Below are positions 53,675 to 64,000 of a DNA stretch of 64,000 nt, piece after piece. The position numbers and the translations under genes were made by a program. The stretch spans positions 5,394,001-5,458,000 of the forward strand of contig NZ_CP163518.1 of the NCBI RefSeq assembly GCF_041080625.1, in the 5' to 3' direction. The notes below the pieces were generated by a model. The model worked only from the letters and a program-made list of their open reading frames with translations. It made no database searches and was not told the DNA's origin. The number at the start of each line of letters is the position of its first letter. The first letter of the stretch is position 1. This stretch comes from Streptomyces sp. CG1 (GTDB lineage: Bacteria; Actinomycetota; Actinomycetes; Streptomycetales; Streptomycetaceae).

Positions 53675-53976
53675 CGAAGTCATGCGCTTGTGAAGAGATC
53701 GCAGCCGGGAGGCCCTGGCGAGCAGAAGGCGATCCCAAGCCGACTGGACTTCGCGCATGGCATCACGGGGCGGCTGGCGGCGGCGTCACCCCCACGGTGA
53801 GCGCACTGCTGCCTGTCCGCGTTCCCCTTCCACCCGAGGTGACGCTACTCTGCGCGACTTCTCCCAGCGCTCGCCAGAGTCGGGGATACTGGTTCGCTGG
53901 TGATCCACCCGCCACTCACGGGGCTCGTTGTGACTGGCTTCAGAGGGGGGATCGCAGGGCTGGGTGTGAGGCGTCG
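53675..53976. other. Upstream region of the DISARM-type operon
   Basis: 302 bp. The helicase reading frame is open back to 53797, but the translated leader lacks helicase-family character and no ribosome binding site supports it. The operon promoter is presumably here; no clear -10/-35 pair stands out. Confidence 0.4.
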
Positions 53977-56900
53977 ATGAAGGAGTCTCGTCAGGTGGGG
54001 ACCGCTACGGAACGTCCGCAGGAAGCGGAGAGCAGCGCCGGGCGGACTGCGGCGCTGCCGCCGGTTCCCGAGCCGGGGCAGGTCGTCAAGGTCCGGGGTT
54101 CCACGTGGGCGGTGTCGGACGTGCGCCGCCAGGGGCTTCCGCGGAGTCCCGCCGATGAGGGAGTACCAGGCCTGACTCATGCGGTCAGTCTGCAGTCGCT
54201 GGACGAGGACCGGTTCGGCCAGGAGCTGACCGTGGTCTGGGAGCTGGAGCTCGGCCACACCGTCGAACCGGACCAGGGGCTGCCGGAAGCCGTACGGCCC
54301 GAGGCGTTCGACGATCCGAACACGCTGGCCGCGTTTGTCGACGCGGTGCGCTGGGGTGCGGTGACCTCAGCGGACGCCAACTCCTACCAGGCTCCGTTCC
54401 GAAGCGGTGCGAACGTCGAGGCGTACCAGCTGGAGCCGTTGCGCCGGGCGCTGCAGTCGTCTCGGACGAACTTGCTGCTCGCCGATGACGTGGGCTTGGG
54501 CAAGACCATCGAAGCAGGCTTGGTCGTGCAGGAGCTGCTACTGCGTCACCGGGCACGGACTGCCGTCATCGTCTGCCCGCCGAGCCTGGCGTTGAAGTGG
54601 CAGGACGAGATGCGGGAGAAGTTCGGCCTGGATTTCGTGATCGTCAACAGTGCGCTGATGGCGAAGGTGAAGCGCAGCCACGGATTGAATGCGAACCCGT
54701 TCCGGCTGTACCCGCGCGTCATTGTGAGCATGGCATGGTTGCCGTCGCTGCGGGCGCAGCGTCTGCTGCGTGAGGTCATGGCCGATGTGCGCAGCACGTC
54801 GACGGCTCGGCGGTTCGCCTTCGACATGCTCGTGGTCGACGAAGCGCACCATGTCGCGCCGGCCAGTCCGACAACGGCTCCGGGACAGCGCGGGTACGCG
54901 GTGGACAGCCAGCGCACCACGGCGACCATGAGGCTGGCGGAGGCATGTGAGCACCGCCTGTTCCTGAGCGCGACGCCACACAACGGCTACTCGGAGTCGT
55001 TCACGGCCCTCTTGGAGATGATCGACAGCCGCCGGTTCACCCGGGGCGCCAGCATCGACGAGAAGGCGCTGCGCGACGTGGCGGTACGACGCCTGAAGAG
55101 CGAACTGCCGGAGAAGGGATTCAAGGCTCGTCAGCTCAAGACGATCCAGTTCGAGCCGTCGCAGGGGGAGCAGAAGCAGTTCGAGAGGCTGGAGCAGCTG
55201 CTTGCCGAGAGCGCCCGTGCCAACGGAAAGGGCAGGGGCGGGGACATCGTCTCGATGCTGCTGAAGAAGCGTTTCCTGTCCAGCCCTTGGTCGTTTGCCC
55301 GGACCCTGGAGCTGTACGAGGCAGCCGATCCAGGTGACCGCCAGCTGGACCTGGACGACGACGCCGGGTACTACGCCGAGGTCATGGGCAGCGGACAGTC
55401 GGACGAGGAGGAAGGCGACGCCGACCACCCCGAGTTCACAGCCCTTCGGCACTCCAAGGGCTCGGACGCGTTGGTCGCGGCAACCGAGAGCGAGATCGCC
55501 TCGCTGGTCGAATGGGGTCTGAGCTATGAGCACAAGCCGGATTCCCGGCTCGAAGCCCTCATCTCCTTCCTCAACGCCCACTGCCGTACGTCCGACGGGA
55601 AACTCTGGACGAACGAGCGTGTGGTGGTCTTCACCGAGTACGCCGCCACGCTCGACTGGATCGCCGGCGTTCTGCGCCAGCGTGGCTACAAGGACAGGTT
55701 CGAAACGATCCAGGGCTCGACCCCGGCCGAAGAGCGCGAGAAGATCCGGGCGCGGTTCACCGAGAGTCCCGACAAGCATCCGGTGCGCGTCCTGCTGGCT
55801 ACTGATTCTGCGGGCGAGGGCATCGACCTTCAGGTGCACTGCCACCGCCTGGTCAACTTCGACATCCCGTTCAACCCCTCCCGCCTCGAGCAGCGGATCG
55901 GTCGCATCGACCGGTACGGGCAGACACAGAGCCCCGAGATCTACCACTTCGTGCCCGAGTCGACCTCCACGACGTATGCGGCGGACATGCAGTTTATGGG
56001 GATCATCGCCACCAAGGTGGGCACAGCGACCAACGATCTCGTGGGCAAGGTCAACCAGGTCATCGACTCCGACGTTCAGGAGCACTTCAGCCCGTCCGGC
56101 GGCAGTCGCAAGTCGCGGCCCACCCCCCCTGACGACGGAAACGAAGTCATCAACCAGGCACTGGCCGGCGGAGTCGGGCTGAACCGTCAGCTCACCGAAC
56201 TCGCCCGAAGTTACGATGACCGCAAGACGGCGATGCACCTGACACCGGCCAACGCCCGACGCGTAGTGGACACCGCGCTCGCCCTGGACGATCAGCCGCC
56301 CCTGGAAGAAATCGGTGACGACCGGACCGACGCGCCGGTCTTCGAGGTTCCCCACCTGGGCCGATCCTGGCAGTTCGCCCTGCGAGGTCTGGACACGCGC
56401 CTGGATCCGGGAGTGCTGCGACCGATCACCTTCGATGACAAGGCGTCACAAGGACGCACGGACCTCGTCCACATCCACCTCGGGCATGCCCTGATGCAGC
56501 GGGCCACCCGCACCCTGCGCAGCGCTCTGTTCAGCGTGAACTCGAAGATCAACCGGGTCAGCGCAGTCGTCACCCCCGGTCTCACGGAGTCGTGCGTAGC
56601 CGCTGTGTCCCGTCTCGTCCTCGTTGGCCGCGGAGGCCTGCGGCTGCACGAGGAAGTTTTCCTCACCGGCATTCGACTGCGCGGGCGGGCGCTTGCCGAG
56701 GCCAAGGTCGAACAGGTACTGGATAAGACCCTGGATGCCGATGAGCTGGAACTGGCCGACGAGCAAGTACGCACCCACCTTTCCGCTCTCTGGAACGACG
56801 ACGGAGCCCGTCTGCGTACCCGGCTGCTGAACGCGATGGAGCGCAAGAGCGAGACTCTGCAGGAGAAGGTCACCCAGACCCTCAAGGACCGCGAACAGAC

Positions 56901-57207
56901 AGACATCAAGCGGGTCCGTGAGATCTTCGACGCGTTTCGAGTCAACCTGCGGGACTCCCGGGACGCGTTGGAGCGCGCCATTCGCGCGGAGGAAGAAGAC
57001 GTCCTCTTCAGCGATGACCAGCAGAAGCAGCGCCGCCGGGACCTCAACCACATGAACGAGCGCCTGGAGAGCCTGGACAACGAGGAGGCCCGCGAGCTCG
57101 CCTCGATCCGGGAGCGCTACAGCGACATCAAGCCGTACGTTTCGGCCGCCGCCGTGGTGTTCGCACTGACCCCTGAAGACGCGAGGAACGGAATGGTCGA
57201 GGCATGA
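53977..57207 (+). CDS. drmD: DISARM helicase DrmD (SNF2/SF2 family)
   Basis: A 1076-residue SNF2-like helicase; ATG 53977 has GTGAGG 5 bp upstream. Motifs (numbered from this start): Walker A ADDVGLGKT (169-177), DEAHH (288-292), LSATPHNG (~330-337). The helicase C lobe has VVVFTEYAATLDW, ATDSAGEGIDLQ (~609) and QRIGRIDRYGQ (~640-650). A long helical C-terminal region follows (RTRLLNAMERKSETLQEKVT). DrmD is the hallmark of class 1 DISARM, which restricts phages with a methylase and the DrmABC helicase/nuclease set. The stop overlaps drmMI (ATGA). Confidence 0.85.
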   Translation: MKESRQVGTATERPQEAESSAGRTAALPPVPEPGQVVKVRGSTWAVSDVRRQGLPRSPADEGVPGLTHAVSLQSLDEDRFGQELTVVWELELGHTVEPDQGLPEAVRPEAFDDPNTLAAFVDAVRWGAVTSADANSYQAPFRSGANVEAYQLEPLRRALQSSRTNLLLADDVGLGKTIEAGLVVQELLLRHRARTAVIVCPPSLALKWQDEMREKFGLDFVIVNSALMAKVKRSHGLNANPFRLYPRVIVSMAWLPSLRAQRLLREVMADVRSTSTARRFAFDMLVVDEAHHVAPASPTTAPGQRGYAVDSQRTTATMRLAEACEHRLFLSATPHNGYSESFTALLEMIDSRRFTRGASIDEKALRDVAVRRLKSELPEKGFKARQLKTIQFEPSQGEQKQFERLEQLLAESARANGKGRGGDIVSMLLKKRFLSSPWSFARTLELYEAADPGDRQLDLDDDAGYYAEVMGSGQSDEEEGDADHPEFTALRHSKGSDALVAATESEIASLVEWGLSYEHKPDSRLEALISFLNAHCRTSDGKLWTNERVVVFTEYAATLDWIAGVLRQRGYKDRFETIQGSTPAEEREKIRARFTESPDKHPVRVLLATDSAGEGIDLQVHCHRLVNFDIPFNPSRLEQRIGRIDRYGQTQSPEIYHFVPESTSTTYAADMQFMGIIATKVGTATNDLVGKVNQVIDSDVQEHFSPSGGSRKSRPTPPDDGNEVINQALAGGVGLNRQLTELARSYDDRKTAMHLTPANARRVVDTALALDDQPPLEEIGDDRTDAPVFEVPHLGRSWQFALRGLDTRLDPGVLRPITFDDKASQGRTDLVHIHLGHALMQRATRTLRSALFSVNSKINRVSAVVTPGLTESCVAAVSRLVLVGRGGLRLHEEVFLTGIRLRGRALAEAKVEQVLDKTLDADELELADEQVRTHLSALWNDDGARLRTRLLNAMERKSETLQEKVTQTLKDREQTDIKRVREIFDAFRVNLRDSRDALERAIRAEEEDVLFSDDQQKQRRRDLNHMNERLESLDNEEARELASIRERYSDIKPYVSAAAVVFALTPEDARNGMVEA

Positions 57208-60200
57208 GCCGTAAGTACCCCCCGACTGCCGCCAGCTTGCACCGCGCCTGGCTCGAGCTGGTCGACACGGACGGCCCGTTCCTCGCCGTGCCCGCCCTCG
57301 AACGAGTCTGGCCCCAGGGAATCCCCCAGCCGAACCCCCGGGCCCTCGATGCACTCAAGGACGCCAAACCCGCCTTTGAGAAGGCATGGGAGAACTGGGA
57401 CACCCACCGCGAGGACACGGCCGCCCTGGATCTGTACCGCGAGGCCCGCGACACCTGGGTCGACCTCGTACTGCGCCAAGGGCTGCGCTGGATCAACTCC
57501 TACACCGTCCCCGCGCCGGCCGCCGCCGAGGTGCGCTCACCCGACTACACCGTGACCGTCCGTGCCGACGGCGCCCTCGTCGACGGTGACACGACAGCTG
57601 CGCTCGTCCTGGTCATCGACCCCGTCGACTCCCTGCGCGATCCGCTCACCGACGGCTGGTCCGCGAGCCCGATCGATCGCATGGAGGAACTGCTGCGCGC
57701 TTCCGAGATCCCAATCGGCATCGTTACCGACGGCCGCTGGTGGGCGATCGTCAGCGCCCGTCCGCAGACCATGGTCGCCTCCGGCATCGTGGACGCCCAG
57801 GACTGGATCGCGGAGCCCCAGACCCGTAACGCCTTCATCGAACTCCTCCAACGTCGGCGCCTGGTCGGCGGCAAACCGGCCGACCGGCTCACTGAACTGT
57901 TCGGTGAGTCCGTCACGGCTTCGGAGAAGATCACCGAGGCGCTCGGTACCCAGGTTCGACGCGCTGTCGAACTCGTCGTTCAGGCCTTGTCCGAGGGCGG
58001 CCTGGACGCAGCGCGCAGAGGCGAACCCGACCCGCTCCCGGACCGGCGCGGCGAAGTCTACGAGGCGGCCGTCACCGTCATGATGCGCGTCGTTTTCCTC
58101 CTCTTTGCAGAGGAACGAGGCCTGCTCCCCGAGAACGAGCTGTTTGCGATGGGATACGGCGTCAGCGACGAACTCGATCAGCTCGACGCCCGGCAGAACG
58201 AGGAAGGCGACCAGGCCCTCGACGCCACTTACCTCACCTGGCACCGTCTCCTGGCCACATCCCAGGCCCTCTATCAGGGCGCCACCTTCGAGGACCTGCG
58301 CCTCCCTGAATACGGCGGCTCGCTCTTCGACCCTTCCCGCTTCCCTTTCCTCACCGCTCGCGACTCCCAGGGCGCCTTGGCCATCACCGTCAGCGATCGC
58401 GTGATGCACGAGGTGCTGCGCGCCGTCCAGATCGCGCAGCTGACCGGTGGCGCCCGCCGTATCTCCTTCCGAGACATCGACGTCGAACAGATCGGCTACA
58501 TCTACGAGGGCCTTCTCGGATACTCCTGCGAGAACGTGGACGAGGTCATCGTCGGACTCGCTGGCCGGGCAGGCTCCGAACCCGAGATGCCGCTCGCCAC
58601 ACTCGAAGAGCTCGCCGAGGCGGCACCCGACGACAGCACTCTCGCGGAAGCCGTCCTGGCATGGGTCAAAGAGAACCAGCCCGCCGCCAAGCCTCCGACG
58701 AAGGCCGCTCTCGCCAAGGCGCTCAAGACTGCGGATACCCTTGACGACACCGAGAACGTCCTACGCGACCTCACCGATGACGAAGACCTGCGCGAGAGAC
58801 TGCGCCCGTTCATCGGCATCATCCGCAGAGACCTGCGAAACCGGCCCCTGGTGGTCGAGCCCGGCGGTGTCCTCCTGGTCGAGACACCCTCACGTGCCTC
58901 GGCCGGCGCGCACTACACACCACGCTCGCTCGCCGAAGAGGTCGTACGCCACGCTCTGGAACCGCTCGTCTACTCGCCCGGACCTCACCAGACGGCCGAT
59001 CAGGATGCCTGGCAGCTGGTTTTTTCGGACGAGATCCTCGATCTCAAGATCGCAGACATCGCGTGCGGCTCAGGCGCGTTCTTGGTCGCTGCAGCCCGGT
59101 ACCTGGCCGCTCGGCTTGTCGAGGCATGGCGCCGCGATCACGCGGCCACCGGAAACGCACACGACCTGTATGTCCGCGCGATAAGGAAAGTCGTCGCGCG
59201 GTGCCTCTACGGCGCGGACATCAACGGCATGGCTGTGGAAATGTGCAAGCTGTCGCTGTGGCTTGTCTCCCTCGACCCGAAACTTCCCTTCTCGTTCGTC
59301 GACGACAAGGTGCTCCACGGCAACTCTCTGCTTGGACTCACGGACGCCGAGCAGATCCGCGCGCTTCACATCACCCCGGGCAAGGGTGCGGCGACCCCCC
59401 TCTTCGACCTCGATGATGGGGCAAGGGCGATCCGGCACCTCGACATCGATGGTGTGCTCACCAGGGCATCGAGGCTACGGCAGAGCCTCGCGAGCGAGAT
59501 CAATATCGATGACCCACAGCGTTCAGCCACCACCAAACGACGGCAGTGGCGTGAGTATCAAGACCTGACCCGGCAGCTCGCAGAGGTCGCCGACAGTGTG
59601 GTCGCGGCTGGCCTACGCGTTGGAGGTAAACCCGGCAAGGCACTGACCGAGGCATACGAAAACCTCCGTATCGCGGTCAGCCTGGCCCACCCCGCGGAGG
59701 ACGGCGGTAGGTCCAACCGCACCATGCTCGACGGCATCCTCGCCACAGGCCTCACCCCCACAGTGGAGACCGACTACGCGCGCTGGAAGCCGCTGCACTG
59801 GATCCTCGCTGTGCCGGACGTGATGGAACGAGGCGGGTTCGACGCGATCATCGGCAATCCACCGTTCCTGGGCGGCCAGAAGCTCACAGGAACCATGGGC
59901 ACGAACGTCCGCGACTGGTTCGTCACCGTACTCGCGAACGGCCGCAAGGGAAGCGCGGACCTCGTCGCCTACTTCACCCTCCGGGCGCATCAGCTTCTCG
60001 CGGCTCGTGGATACACCGGCCTCATCGCCACTAACACGCTCGCCCAAGGCGATACGCGGGAAGTGGGTCTTGACCACATCACTGAAAGCGGCGTCGAAAT
60101 TCGAAGGGCTGTGAAGAGCGCGCCTTGGCCGTCCGCCTCAGCCGCGCTGGAGTACTGCGCGGTGTGGACCAGCAAGGAGCCGCTTACGCCCGAAGCGACG

Positions 60201-61202
60201 CGTGTCCTAGACGGCGAGGAGGTATCCGGTATCACCTCCTCCCTCGACCGCAAGTCACGAGTCTCGGGTCGGCCGTTCCGGCTGGTAGCCAACCGCGGGA
60301 AGTCCTTCCAAGGATCCAATGTGCTCGGTAAGGGTTTCATTCTGGAGCCCGAGCAGGCACTGGATCTGATCGAGCGTGACCACCGCAACAAGGACGTCCT
60401 CTTCCCCTACCTGAACGGTGAAGACCTCAACTCCCGGCCCGACTGCTCAGCGAGCCGCTGGGTGATCAACTTCCATGACTGGCCCGAGGAGCAGGCGCGG
60501 AACTACCCCGAAGTATTCGACATCGTCGAGCGCCTCGTGAAACCCGTACGAGCGCAGAACAGTCGAGTCGCCCGCCGGGAACGTTGGTGGCAGTTCGCCG
60601 AGCGGGCTCCGAAACTGTACGAGGCGATCCGAGATCTTGACCGTGTCCTGGTGGTAGCTCGCGTCAGCAAGACGTGTCTCCCGGTCTTCGCCCCGACAGG
60701 TCAGGTAATTAGCGAAGCCACTGTGATCTTTACGAGCAACAGTACATCGGACCTCGCACTGCTCAGTAGCGGCATCCATTACTTGTGGGCTAGCACTTGG
60801 GGGTCCAGCCTCAAGGGAGACTTGCGCTACACGCCGTCTGACGTTTTTGAGACATTCCCGCAACCGGCCCCGTCAGCCATGAAAAGCCTCGCCGACCTGG
60901 GTGCTCTCCTGAATGAGACTCGATCTGCGATCATGCTTGAGCACAATCTCGGCTTGACGGGGCTTAACAACAGATTTCACAACCCTGCTGTCGTCGACAG
61001 GGAAATTGACGAACTGCGAGATATTCACACCCGTATCGATCAAGCTGTGATGAGCGCTTACGGATGGGACGATCTCAATCTTGAGTATGTTTTCCAGCAC
61101 GGCAAGAAGGGGTCTCGCCGCACCTTTGACGGTGCCAGCCAAGTGGAGATCCTCGACCGCTTGCTCGCGCTCAATCACGCATGCAGTCAAGGAGGGAAAT
61201 GA
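57204..61202 (+). CDS. drmMI: DISARM N6-adenine methyltransferase DrmMI (Eco57I/PglX-like), with invertible C-terminus
   Basis: A 1332-residue methyltransferase. SAM-binding motif I is DIACGSGAF (from D618); catalytic motif IV is NPPF (from N885) in FDAIIGNPPFLGG. The target-recognition region follows, with PYLNGEDLNSRPDCSASRW and a YPEVFDIVERLVKPVR helix, then a C-terminal part ending EILDRLLALNH. Residues 1043-1115 are encoded by a 221-bp sequence repeated in inverted orientation at 61883-62103; residues 1116-1332 have a different homologous version on the opposite strand. It should mark host DNA by adenine methylation. The 3' cassette looks less GC-rich than the 5' gene, suggesting separate ancestry. 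Confidence 0.87.
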   Translation: MSRKYPPTAASLHRAWLELVDTDGPFLAVPALERVWPQGIPQPNPRALDALKDAKPAFEKAWENWDTHREDTAALDLYREARDTWVDLVLRQGLRWINSYTVPAPAAAEVRSPDYTVTVRADGALVDGDTTAALVLVIDPVDSLRDPLTDGWSASPIDRMEELLRASEIPIGIVTDGRWWAIVSARPQTMVASGIVDAQDWIAEPQTRNAFIELLQRRRLVGGKPADRLTELFGESVTASEKITEALGTQVRRAVELVVQALSEGGLDAARRGEPDPLPDRRGEVYEAAVTVMMRVVFLLFAEERGLLPENELFAMGYGVSDELDQLDARQNEEGDQALDATYLTWHRLLATSQALYQGATFEDLRLPEYGGSLFDPSRFPFLTARDSQGALAITVSDRVMHEVLRAVQIAQLTGGARRISFRDIDVEQIGYIYEGLLGYSCENVDEVIVGLAGRAGSEPEMPLATLEELAEAAPDDSTLAEAVLAWVKENQPAAKPPTKAALAKALKTADTLDDTENVLRDLTDDEDLRERLRPFIGIIRRDLRNRPLVVEPGGVLLVETPSRASAGAHYTPRSLAEEVVRHALEPLVYSPGPHQTADQDAWQLVFSDEILDLKIADIACGSGAFLVAAARYLAARLVEAWRRDHAATGNAHDLYVRAIRKVVARCLYGADINGMAVEMCKLSLWLVSLDPKLPFSFVDDKVLHGNSLLGLTDAEQIRALHITPGKGAATPLFDLDDGARAIRHLDIDGVLTRASRLRQSLASEINIDDPQRSATTKRRQWREYQDLTRQLAEVADSVVAAGLRVGGKPGKALTEAYENLRIAVSLAHPAEDGGRSNRTMLDGILATGLTPTVETDYARWKPLHWILAVPDVMERGGFDAIIGNPPFLGGQKLTGTMGTNVRDWFVTVLANGRKGSADLVAYFTLRAHQLLAARGYTGLIATNTLAQGDTREVGLDHITESGVEIRRAVKSAPWPSASAALEYCAVWTSKEPLTPEATRVLDGEEVSGITSSLDRKSRVSGRPFRLVANRGKSFQGSNVLGKGFILEPEQALDLIERDHRNKDVLFPYLNGEDLNSRPDCSASRWVINFHDWPEEQARNYPEVFDIVERLVKPVRAQNSRVARRERWWQFAERAPKLYEAIRDLDRVLVVARVSKTCLPVFAPTGQVISEATVIFTSNSTSDLALLSSGIHYLWASTWGSSLKGDLRYTPSDVFETFPQPAPSAMKSLADLGALLNETRSAIMLEHNLGLTGLNNRFHNPAVVDREIDELRDIHTRIDQAVMSAYGWDDLNLEYVFQHGKKGSRRTFDGASQVEILDRLLALNHACSQGGK
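60273..60292 (+). repeat. Outer 20-bp inverted repeat, left copy
   Basis: CCGTTCCGGCTGGTAGCCAA, encoding PFRLVAN, recurs inverted at 62141-62160. It is separated from the 221-bp repeat by 37 bp that differ between copies. It could be the binding or crossover site of the adjacent recombinase. Confidence 0.7.
60330..60550 (+). repeat. 221-bp inverted repeat, left copy (inside drmMI)
   Basis: Base-by-base comparison with the reverse complement of 61883-62103 gives 220 of 221 identities; the only change is A60373 against C (Glu versus Ala codon). It encodes DrmMI residues 1043-1115, at the entrance of the variable C-terminal region. Confidence 0.95.
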
Positions 61203-61239
61203 GTATCGCCATACTCAAGCTAAAGATTCAGCTATTTTC

Positions 61240-62109
61240 TCATTCCGCACGGTGACGCTCCTGGTTTAGTTCGAGCAGTCGATCGAGAATCTCCGCATTG
61301 ATGGTACCTTCAAGGGTGCGGCGAACACCTTGTTTCGTTTCATGGAAGTCATGCCGAACGTCCAGATCGTGCCAGCCATACAAATCTGCCACTGTGCGAT
61401 CGATAAGCTCATGCACTTCTCGCAGAGTCCGAATGCCTGCATCAGTGATGGCAGGGTCATGGAAAGCACTATAAAGCTTTGTTAGCCCTTCTTTGCGTTC
61501 CGTCGCGAGCTCTTTTCGAAGCTGATGCAGGGTTGCACCCTGTTCTGCGAGAGCAGGGTTAAACCTAGGATGAGGAAGAGTCTCATAAGCGTCGGAAGGT
61601 GAATAATTCAGATCCGCCTTCATTGTTGACGAATTGCGCCATGCCCAGTTGGTATGAAACGAACTGGCCAGGAAAGCGAGATATTCGTCATCATCGACTG
61701 CGAAGATACAGAGCTTATGGGCCAAGACCTGCCGGCTAGACGTCCACGTCGGCATCATCGTCCTGCTGACAAGGGCTACCACCAGGACACGGTCGAGTTC
61801 TTCGATGGCTGCGAGCATGGCAGGCCGCTTCTCGGCATACTGCCACCAGTTGTCGCGGTAGACCTTGCGGTTATTTGACATGCGTACGGGTTTCACGAGG
61901 CGCTCGACGATGTCGAATACTTCGGGGTAGTTCCGCGCCTGCTCCTCGGGCCAGTCATGGAAGTTGATCACCCAGCGGCTCGCTGAGCAGTCGGGCCGGG
62001 AGTTGAGGTCTTCACCGTTCAGGTAGGGGAAGAGGACGTCCTTGTTGCGGTGGTCACGCGCGATCAGATCCAGTGCCTGCTCGGGCTCCAGAATGAAACC
62101 CTTGCCCAA
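61240..62109 (-). CDS. Silent alternative C-terminal cassette of DrmMI
   Basis: A 289-codon open frame on the minus strand with no methyltransferase motifs of its own. It begins within sequence matching DrmMI (GKGFILEPEQALDLI), shares 73 near-identical residues, then diverges but stays homologous: VLVVALVSRTMM against VLVVARVSKTCL, YSPSDAYETLPHP against YTPSDVFETFPQP, ending EILDRLLELN against EILDRLLALN. Weaker homology extends upstream to about 62163 (PFRLVANQGKSF). No promoter or good start is evident, so it is a donor cassette, not a gene. The unique part is visibly AT-richer than flanking genes. Confidence 0.88.
   Translation of the reverse strand: MGKGFILEPEQALDLIARDHRNKDVLFPYLNGEDLNSRPDCSASRWVINFHDWPEEQARNYPEVFDIVERLVKPVRMSNNRKVYRDNWWQYAEKRPAMLAAIEELDRVLVVALVSRTMMPTWTSSRQVLAHKLCIFAVDDDEYLAFLASSFHTNWAWRNSSTMKADLNYSPSDAYETLPHPRFNPALAEQGATLHQLRKELATERKEGLTKLYSAFHDPAITDAGIRTLREVHELIDRTVADLYGWHDLDVRHDFHETKQGVRRTLEGTINAEILDRLLELNQERHRAE
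61883..62103 (-). repeat. 221-bp inverted repeat, right copy (in silent cassette)
   Basis: Reverse complement of 60330-60550 with one mismatch at 62060. Identity ends abruptly at both edges, which fits a segment homogenised by recombination. Confidence 0.95.
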
Positions 62110-62140
62110 GACGTACGAGCCGATGAACGATTTCCCTTGA

Positions 62141-62160
62141 TTGGCTACCAGCCGGAACGG
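62141..62160 (-). repeat. Outer 20-bp inverted repeat, right copy
   Basis: Exact inverted copy of 60273-60292, lying 79 bp before the recombinase start. Confidence 0.7.
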
Positions 62161-62238
62161 GAATGAGCCTATTTTCCGACTTGGCTTGCGAGTTAACTTC
62201 CAGGGATAACCGCGCTACAGTCGGTCAAGGATTGGGGC

Positions 62239-63024
62239 ATGGTGATCGAGAGGTATGTAGCGGCTCAGCGTGCGGACGGCTACGCTGCCAATACCATCCG
62301 TGCCCGAGTGAACTGCATCAAGGCGATCGCAAAGCATGCAGGCTTGGCGGTCGACGGGATCCGCGCGGAGCACGTTCAGGCGTATTTCTCGACCCGCGCG
62401 CTCACGAACTGGACCCGGCGTACCTACCTCAATCATCTGGCATCTTTTGGCAGGTGGCTCGGCAGCAACCTCATTGACGGCATCCGGAAACCGCCGGCTC
62501 CCCGTGCCACCCCAGATCCCATTGCGGAGCGCGACCTCAAGGATTTGCTGGGCTCCACGACTCGGCCTGATCACCGTGCGTGGGTGCTGCTCGGAGCCTA
62601 CTGCGGGCTCCGTGCGCATGAGACGGCCAACCTGTCTGTCGAGGATCTGCATGACAGTAGTGACGGGCAGACGCTTCTGCGCGTAGTGGGCAAGGGCGGG
62701 CGGACCGACGTGGTCCCGGTGCCGCCTGTCGTGCTCGCTGCGCTCAACCGTCAGAGCAGCGGGCGGTTCTGGCCGGATCTTCGTCCTGAGAAGGTCTCGC
62801 GCTCCATCTCACGGATGGCCAAAGCCATGGGGATGAAGATGCGCTATCACCAACTTCGTCACCGTTTCGGGACCGCCGTCTACCGGGCTTCCGGGCAAGA
62901 TCTCTTGATGACTCAGAGGCTCATGCGGCATGCCTCCCCGGCGACCACGGCTGGTTATGCAGCAGTTGCTGATGATCGGTTCCAGGAAGTCGTCCGGGAT
63001 CTTCCCGGAGCCCTTCACACGTGA
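62239..63024 (+). CDS. Tyrosine recombinase (probable DrmMI cassette invertase)
   Basis: A 261-residue XerC/D-like recombinase (ATG 62239) without an extra arm-binding domain. The core-binding domain covers residues ~1-85, the catalytic domain ~95-255. All active-site residues are present: Arg125 (YCGLRAHE), Lys152 (GKGGR), His204 and Arg207 (YHQLRHRFG), His231 (LMRHASPATT) and nucleophile Tyr240 (AGYAAV). It lies between the invertible segment and drmA on the operon strand; no other phage or integrative-element genes are next to it. Resident invertase is the favoured role; a minor integrase of a lost element is the alternative. Confidence 0.88.
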   Translation: MVIERYVAAQRADGYAANTIRARVNCIKAIAKHAGLAVDGIRAEHVQAYFSTRALTNWTRRTYLNHLASFGRWLGSNLIDGIRKPPAPRATPDPIAERDLKDLLGSTTRPDHRAWVLLGAYCGLRAHETANLSVEDLHDSSDGQTLLRVVGKGGRTDVVPVPPVVLAALNRQSSGRFWPDLRPEKVSRSISRMAKAMGMKMRYHQLRHRFGTAVYRASGQDLLMTQRLMRHASPATTAGYAAVADDRFQEVVRDLPGALHT

Positions 63025-63269
63025 GCTCGGTGCGCTGCGCGGCGGCGAGGCCGAGGAAAGCACATGCGCGATCGGGGTTCGACTGTCAGTGCTACGCGAT
63101 AGCGTCAGTCGCAGTGATCACGAAGAGGTGGGGTGAGGCTGTGACGTTCCCGAGGGCGGCTGAAGGCGCTGCAGTACTCTGCAGCAGAGTCCGTTATGCG
63201 GCGCAGGAACCACCCCGGACGGCTTTGGACAGGCTGCGGACGAGCCTGGGCGAGGAGCATGCCAAGTGA
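63021..63269 (+). CDS. Small ORF between recombinase and drmA
   Basis: Up to 82 residues from GTG 63021, overlapping the recombinase stop, or 42 residues from GTG 63141, which has GGTGAGG just upstream. The stop overlaps the drmA start (GTGA). The end (RVRYAAQEPPRTALDRLRTS) faintly resembles the RxxY...LDRL tail of DrmMI-type proteins, so it may be a leftover of an ancestral drmMI 3' end. Otherwise unknown. Confidence 0.35.
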   Translation: MSSVRCAAARPRKAHARSGFDCQCYAIASVAVITKRWGEAVTFPRAAEGAAVLCSRVRYAAQEPPRTALDRLRTSLGEEHAK

Positions 63270-64000
63270 GTGTCCCCCACCCTCCGCACGAGCCGTCCTA
63301 CCCGCTCGACTTCGAGCCGGACGGACGGTCCTGGACGGCCCGGGAGAACCTGGTCGACATTCTGAGGCGAGAACTCCTCGGTCCGGCCGGCGGCCCCGAA
63401 GAGATCATCGAAGGTGCTCCCGACTCTGCGTACCTGGTCGGCCGTATTGCCCCGGAACGTCTCACGGCCGGCGAGGCCAACCCGACCCAGGCAGATTCCG
63501 ACGATGCCGCCACCGATGTCGGTGATGCTGTCGATGCGGCCGAGAGCCGGGGCATCCCGTTGACTGCAGTCGACGACAGCAGTGCGTCTTCGGAGGAAGA
63601 CGACGTAGACGATCAGCCGCAGAAGCGCGGGCTGATGATTCCGGCTTCGATGGGGCTGCGCTGCCAGGTCCCGGAAGACCTCGATGCGTTCACGGTGGTC
63701 ACCGAGTTCGGCACGTATGAGCCCGTGAAGGAGAAGCAGGGCGAGGGCGACGAACCAGCTTCGCGCCTACGTCGGTACCAGCGAATTCCGCATCGCTTCG
63801 GCACGACGATCAAGATCGCGGACCTTACGCCGTCTCAGACCAAGACGTACGTGCTGAAGGATCAGGTCCTCCTGCGGGTGGACCGCTATGACGACGGCGA
63901 GCGAGGCTGCCGCCTGATCGAGATCGCCCTGTGTAATGACAGGGAGACACCACGCCAGATTCCGGTGGAAGCGTGGCTCTACCAGACACAGCTGACCGTC
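63266..64000 (+). CDS. drmA: DISARM helicase DrmA, N-terminal part
   Basis: The first 245 codons of a large protein that continues past the window. GTG 63266 overlaps the preceding stop. The N-terminus, with ENLVDILRRELLGPAGGPEE and YLVGRIAPERL followed by an acidic linker (~75-115) and a beta-rich region, resembles the N-terminal domain of DrmA, the helicase shared by all DISARM systems. Helicase motifs would lie further on and cannot be seen. Its position behind drmD and drmMI supports the call; drmB and drmC should follow. Confidence 0.72.
   Translation, partial: MSVPHPPHEPSYPLDFEPDGRSWTARENLVDILRRELLGPAGGPEEIIEGAPDSAYLVGRIAPERLTAGEANPTQADSDDAATDVGDAVDAAESRGIPLTAVDDSSASSEEDDVDDQPQKRGLMIPASMGLRCQVPEDLDAFTVVTEFGTYEPVKEKQGEGDEPASRLRRYQRIPHRFGTTIKIADLTPSQTKTYVLKDQVLLRVDRYDDGERGCRLIEIALCNDRETPRQIPVEAWLYQTQLTV

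Follow-up and report, generated by a model that had tools for sequence, protein, structure and literature searches.

Inverted drmMI tail in a class 1 DISARM operon

The DNA analysed here, called the window below, is a stretch of 64,000 nucleotides from Streptomyces sp. CG1 (contig NZ_CP163518.1, G000:C1:5394001-5458000), whose genome of 11.1 Mb is assembled in 2 contigs, the one with the window being 11.04 Mb long. It carries the first part of an operon of the phage defence system DISARM (defence island system associated with restriction-modification), in the order drmD-drmMI-drmA-drmB-drmC. The operon is cut by the window end, with drmB and drmC lying outside. Class 1 DISARM is defined by drmD plus the adenine methyltransferase gene drmMI. 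Both were matched here, and the core genes drmA, drmB and drmC stand together at the same locus, which places the operon in class 1. Its genes are as follows.

53797..57207, + strand: drmD, 1136 aa, SNF2-type helicase (PADLOC DrmD, 1281 bits; Pfam SNF2-rel_dom and Helicase_C)
57204..61202, + strand: drmMI, 1332 aa, adenine methyltransferase, active copy (PADLOC DrmMI, 1678 bits)
63266..64000, + strand, continuing outside the window as L005:1266-4988: drmA, 1240 aa (PADLOC DrmA, 952 bits)
L005:4685-7012, outside the window: drmB (PADLOC DrmB, 238 bits)
L005:7005-7745, outside the window: drmC (PADLOC DrmC, 369 bits)

The drmMI product contains the Pfam domains Eco57I, MmeI_Mtase and MmeI_TRD, and that of drmA matches NCBIfam NF038325 (DISARM_DrmAS) with 1357 bits (cut-off 950). 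In the interval from drmMI to drmA, the 3′ end of drmMI is present a second time in inverted orientation (61240-62160), followed by a recombinase gene. Across the whole genome, DrmMI matches at E 1e-10 are confined to drmMI and this silent tail. A previous sequence-only reading had reported an inverted partial copy behind drmMI, and the copy is indeed there, intact and open; the description was incomplete, however, in leaving out the tyrosine recombinase gene at 62239-63024. The inverted arms, at 60273-60550 and 61883-62160, share 94% identity, and each has from outside to inside the order s1, block 1, s2, block 2, s3 and block 3 to the stop (TRD, target-recognition domain, with sub-domains TRD-N and TRD-C).

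60273..60292, + strand: site s1, 20-bp exact inverted repeat, outer edge of the invertible unit
60293..60329, + strand: variable block 1, active form, diverged 37 bp; the residues aligned to MmeI Y642/K645 are Q and N
60330..60550, + strand: repeat s2, 221 bp, first part of the TRD
60551..60638, + strand: variable block 2, active form, diverged 88 bp, end of TRD-N
60639..60658, + strand: site s3, 20-bp exact inverted repeat at the TRD-N/TRD-C border
60659..61202, + strand: variable block 3, active form A, long and diverged up to the stop; contains TRD-C and the C-terminal helices
61203..61239, no strand: unique spacer separating the two convergent stop codons, inverted in the relative L011
61240..62109, - strand: silent TRD tail B, 289 aa from TTG; open frame 61240-62214, stop at 61240-61242
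61775..61794, - strand: partner of s3 in the silent arm
61883..62103, - strand: partner of s2, 221-bp repeat in the silent arm
62141..62160, - strand: partner of s1, outer end of the silent cassette, where clear DNA homology to drmMI stops

Tail A is currently fused to the active drmMI. The 221-bp repeat named in the earlier reading is present with 220 of 221 positions matching, as two exact stretches of 43 and 177 bp, and counted from its start the two tails are open for 290 and 287 codons, as had been stated. The invertible unit is larger than the 60330-62103 then proposed; the arms themselves are real, and homology extends through the 37-bp block to 60273-60292 and 62141-62160. The 17-mers of s1 and s3 each have 2 mismatch-free copies genome-wide, one per arm. 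In-frame joining by inversion was borne out in silico, with an inversion inside s2 giving an uninterrupted DrmMI of 1329 aa. None of 2000 shuffles of 61203-62238 contained an open frame of at least 287 codons.

The exchanged part begins, as anticipated, at the target-recognition region, since PF20466 (MmeI_TRD) matches from aa 1042, at about 60327. This family is above its cut-off in both the active and the silent tail, and tail B also matches DrmMI PDLC02643 at E 9e-113. The top structural match of the predicted model of the active tail is 5hr4_C. Target recognition of the MmeI-like (type IIL) kind is thus found in sequence and, as far as the model goes, in fold. The residues aligned to MmeI base contacts lie in the variable blocks between the sites, and therefore up to eight variants would be possible; from the same residues, the two tails may be expected to read different DNA motifs. 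By the rules known for MmeI, the motifs of both forms would be m6A motifs of 6 bp with AG at their end, and would differ at positions 2 to 4. Residue 1153 of DrmMI aligns to MmeI T752 in one alignment and to E751 in another. The residues aligned to MmeI F737/Y738 depended on the aligner and were not used. The GC (guanine plus cytosine) content is 57% in the active tail, 53% in the silent tail and 66% in the drmMI core, the variable tails being taken as 60551-62238; the lower values of the tails would fit a foreign origin, which we do not use as proof.

Swapped relatives and the linked recombinase

Comparison was made with the best 80 of 178 DrmMI relatives from a scan of genome contigs. The nearest, L011 (Streptomyces tuirus PHM034), whose DrmMI core is 98.8% and whose recombinase is 97.7% identical to those of the window, is the kind of swapped relative that the earlier reading had asked for: its active tail corresponds to the silent tail B and its silent tail to the active tail A (93% each). 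The segment 61200-61242 (43 bp, stops included) matches L011 at 43/43 positions in reverse complement and at 28/38 directly, and therefore the DNA has been physically inverted. Gene conversion alone, considered as the origin of the L011 state, was ruled out by this inverted unique spacer.

Block by block, blocks 1 and 3 are exchanged between the window and L011 and block 2 is not. The L011 state requires an odd number of inversions, at least one, and on the simplest path one inversion each at s1, s2 and s3 would account for all the blocks and the spacer. The switch-over from block 2 to block 3 fits best within a stretch of about 22 bp at s3, which is not part of the 221-bp repeat. The inversion proposed in the earlier reading is therefore supported, with its crossover in L011 best placed at s3 rather than in that repeat, and the locus has the anatomy of a multi-junction shuffler, not of a two-state flip. 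A two-state flip at the 221-bp repeat had been our first model, and was dropped since block 3 had moved without block 2. A second reciprocal swap occurs between L029 and L037, two metagenome-assembled genomes of Propionibacteriaceae, where the active tail of L037 groups with the silent tail of L029 and the silent tail of L037 with the active tail of L029, each with a support of 99 (SH-aLRT, Shimodaira-Hasegawa-like approximate likelihood ratio test). In L092, the C-terminal helices are near-identical in both tails (L092:7980-8251, exact runs of 178 and 93 bp) and TRD-C differs, which suggests an extra exchange point downstream of TRD-C.

The silent tails stay open. The earlier reading had named disabling mutations of the silent cassette in every relative as speaking against its claim; stops and frameshifts were absent from all 12 silent copies checked besides that of the window (ten loci plus L111 and L112), although those of L092 and L037 are shortened at the start of TRD-N. 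Between the window and L012, block 3 that is silent in both genomes has a ratio of nonsynonymous to synonymous substitution rates (dN/dS) of 0.21 at a dS of 0.28, compared with 0.24 for the active block 3 and 0.08 for the core. These ratios indicate purifying selection on the silent tails.

The candidate for the inverting enzyme starts 78 bp past the outer arm.

62239..63024, + strand: tyrosine recombinase gene, 261 aa, predicted inverter of the cassette (PF00589 at E 1e-12, above the cut-off)

The catalytic domain of tyrosine recombinases carries R, HxxR, H and Y motifs. Correspondingly, GLRAHE, HQLRH, RHAS and TAGY were found in 8/8 aligned recombinases including that of the window, whose closest solved structure is 5vfz (Gp33, E 5.8e-21). 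A search of the gene for a regulatory TTA codon found none, either in the window or in L011, L012 and L014. By gene context it is a site-specific recombinase linked to the specificity gene, as in hsdS-type switches, with its activity being predicted.

The sequences of the sites follow the presence of this enzyme. In an alignment of 79 of 83 DrmMI tails (rows below 1150 aa, namely L041, L053, L060 and L081, were dropped), s3 has GTA as its second Val codon in 8/8 loci with a tyrosine recombinase versus 0/71 others (Fisher 4e-11), where the relatedness of the loci makes the P-values overstate independence and serve as a guide only. The Val codon of s1 is GTA in 7/8 such loci versus 2/70 others, and the share of GTA among the Val codons of these genes is 6–10%. 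GTA also stands at s3 in the active arms of L111 and L112, and in the silent arm of L111 but not of L112. Moreover, a search with the recombinase only (E 1e-40) gave hits in 3/392 genomes of the genus, 3/395 of the relatives, 3/394 of the family and 1/394 of the class, in overlapping samples that all include the genome of the window itself. All four non-self hits (G110, G225, G845 and G985) adjoin an inverted drmMI tail; in G225, drmA starts about 8 kb past the recombinase (tblastn). Two more distant recombinases (G002 and G284, 32–34% identical, E 1e-20) had no match to drmMI or drmA in the short loci around them (2.6 and 3.8 kb). At E 1e-30, there were 150 relatives of the recombinase in a set of 5.8 billion proteins that does not include genomic context, and none among 72,556 plasmid records.

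Probable site-specific inversion and its alternatives

Considering the swapped relatives, the conserved sites and the linked enzyme, the locus very probably switches the target-recognition domain of its class 1 DISARM methyltransferase by site-specific inversion, and in this way the lineage can probably change which DNA is marked as self. The locus shares with hsdS-type switches an intact, silent and inverted specificity copy that comes into frame on inversion in silico. In the mechanism we propose, the recombinase encoded at 62239-63024 would act on the short inverted sites s1 and s3, and possibly also on a place in s2. Inversion at s1 would exchange the whole target-recognition domain and inversion at s3 only TRD-C plus the C-terminal helices, while an exchange inside s2 would provide a third junction. 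Repeated inversions, together with gene conversion, would shuffle three variable blocks on a constant methyltransferase core, and therefore one locus could yield up to eight DrmMI versions. We infer that it is this recombinase that performs the inversion, presumably at phase-variation rates inside a population or one culture, and that the DrmMI versions would differ in the motifs they methylate, which would change the self mark.

Several observations weigh against such a switch. Only L011 is swapped among the three nearest relatives (L011, L012 and L014), and a single orientation is seen for the genome of the window. L012 has the orientation of the window and a block 2 that is identical in both arms (334-bp exact repeat), and therefore gene conversion or a similar process also acts. 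The sites are not constant, since L092 lacks s1, L059 has a changed s1 in its active arm and L065 in its silent arm, and s3 is changed in the silent arm of L112; the kinship of the loci in the codon test also has to be counted here. L029 has an inverted tail and no recombinase alongside. The recombinase has a dN/dS of 0.34 in the comparison with L011, a value based on 12 substitutions only. What a changed motif would mean for defence is a further point. In a study of Serratia DISARM (PMC9142583), the adenine motif is ACAC(mA)G, and the system is described as repressed by methylation, not activated by a sequence. If this is valid here, a change of motif need not be lethal. According to the same study (PMC9142583), DISARM also restricts phages that have no methylation target, and methylated DNA still elicits a response; therefore a changed motif may count for less in defence than it does in restriction-modification. 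The benefit of switching may then lie elsewhere, for example in gene regulation or conjugation.

The alternative to be taken most seriously, unlikely as we consider it, is slow evolutionary diversification, in which the silent tail would serve as a reserve specificity, swapped in rarely and on the time scales of species. It would explain why each assembly shows one orientation, why one of three near relatives is swapped, and why block 2 was homogenised in L012; the alternative orientation has been seen between species only (L011; L029/L037). It does not sit well with the purifying selection on the recombinase, whose dN/dS of 0.12 against L012 and 0.07 against L014 points, beside the less constrained value against L011, to regular use, nor with the conservation of the sites at the codon level and of the open silent tails, nor with the need for at least one inversion in L011 (three by the simplest path) when the difference between the cores is about 1%. 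That the inversion is instead due to homologous recombination at the 221-bp repeats, or to an unlinked recombinase, with the neighbouring gene being incidental, is distinctly improbable. A long near-perfect repeat is the expected place for such events, the exact repeat of L012 shows that homogenisation occurs, and in pneumococcal hsdS two of three inversions are independent of the linked PsrA, which acts on the 15-bp inverted repeat IR1 and is not needed for inversion at the 298-bp IR2 or the 85-bp IR3 (PMC4948785). However, the crossover in L011 falls best in the short stretch at s3, the recombinase found on its own lies beside such a cassette in 4/4 cases, and the sequences of s1 and s3 track its presence.

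There is very little to be said for an expression of the silent tail as a separate specificity subunit, or antisense to drmMI, with orientation being secondary. The silent frame is open over 61240-62214 and under purifying selection, which speaks for it, but the tail has no methyltransferase core, and the reciprocal exchange in L011 and in L029/L037 explains the selection. An assembly artefact at the inverted repeat is hardly credible. Short-read assembly can in general flip such repeats, but the window and L011 lie in contigs of 11.04 and 6.58 Mb, and a flip cannot yield diverged, intact and selected tails or a mosaic of blocks. We thus return to site-specific inversion and to the systems it resembles. 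The locus is like the pneumococcal hsdS shuffler (PMC4948785) in having several inverted repeats in a specificity gene and silent copies, together with a linked tyrosine recombinase. Whereas hsdS encodes a separate S subunit, what is exchanged here is the C-terminal portion of an MmeI-like, single-chain methyltransferase in a DISARM operon, and one of the sites is at the border of two TRD sub-domains. MmeI itself (type IIL) is a stand-alone restriction enzyme, whereas DrmMI is in an operon with drmD, drmA, drmB and drmC and has an inverted spare tail and a recombinase. In BREX (bacteriophage exclusion), the methyltransferase PglX/BrxX reportedly phase-varies by PglX inversion. A homopolymeric tract is mentioned for BREX in PMC6326788. 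No description of an inverting DISARM methyltransferase was found in the open-licence full-text literature, judged mostly by title and the start of the abstract, and drmMI together with a recombinase gave no match there.

As far as this literature showed, the methyltransferase of DISARM has so far been treated as a constant part. The locus would offer natural A and B variants on one core for testing whether DISARM defence follows the methylation motif. They would also bear on whether switching counters phage escape by methylation and on how a cell survives a changed self mark. If the proposed switch is true, specificity inversion, known from type I systems, is extended to DISARM, with a site at the border of TRD sub-domains.

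Distribution of the cassette among DISARM lineages

An inverted tail copy within 6 kb downstream of drmMI is present in 8 of the 80 loci. It was not found in the 6-kb flank of 67 (shorter in four of them), and the drmMI of the remaining 5 ends at a contig edge within about 100 bases. In L041, L053 and L060, the DrmMI match is interrupted within the gene where the contig ends, or no more than about 100 bases from there, and they were counted as not assessable. The cassette-free loci belong to the same family, and the nearest of their cores, those of L044 and L013, are 82% identical to that of the window; their tails are 50–51% identical to its active tail, and no cassette-free tail compared exceeds 59%.

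The tails and the cores have different histories. A quick tree was made of 49 tails, 11 of them silent and the other 38 from our own selection among 76 full-length genes. The eight loci with a tyrosine recombinase contribute 16 tails to it, which all group in one clade (SH-aLRT 97). The cores of these loci fall into two distant groups, and a single clade was rejected (28 cores, LG+G4, approximately unbiased test p 2.6e-6) in a test made after a first tree of all cores had been inspected. The core of the window is 82% identical to that of the cassette-free L044 and its active tail only 50%, whereas against L059 the core is 47% and the active tail 65% identical. By these trees and identities the cassette is common to two divergent DISARM lineages, and the simplest reading would be that it joined a new DrmMI core with the junction at about s1.

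The same layout occurs with another enzyme in L032 (Cellulosimicrobium) and L037, where a serine recombinase with Resolvase and Recombinase domains precedes drmA. The two genes are 72% identical to each other.

L032:13015-14643: serine recombinase gene between the inverted drmMI tail and drmA
L037:12966-14318: serine recombinase gene between the inverted drmMI tail and drmA

A second type of recombinase has thus apparently been recruited convergently. Going further, we give an even chance to a wider picture in which two TRD tails and a dedicated recombinase would make up a mobile module whose short sites lie between the protein segments for base 2, base 1 and bases 3–6 of the target, providing up to 2x2x2 specificities. 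This module would have been transferred whole to an unrelated DrmMI core, with a serine-recombinase form in other Actinobacteria. Since DISARM is reported to respond to methylation by repression and not to be triggered by an unmethylated motif, the self mark could be changed without self-attack.

The surroundings of the cassette vary among the loci. In L029, the inverted drmMI tail is adjoined by a DnaQ-like exonuclease with a BRCT domain (L029:9172-10677). L065 (L065:13913-19708) and L112 have no drmA in about 6 kb past the recombinase. In L092 (L092:10259-18217), drmA lies about 8 kb past the recombinase, after a DUF2786 protein and a GmrSD-like protein. Perhaps other defence genes have been inserted into DISARM at this place in L092, L065 and L112, or these loci are decayed; in L112, an esterase-like open reading frame lies past the recombinase.
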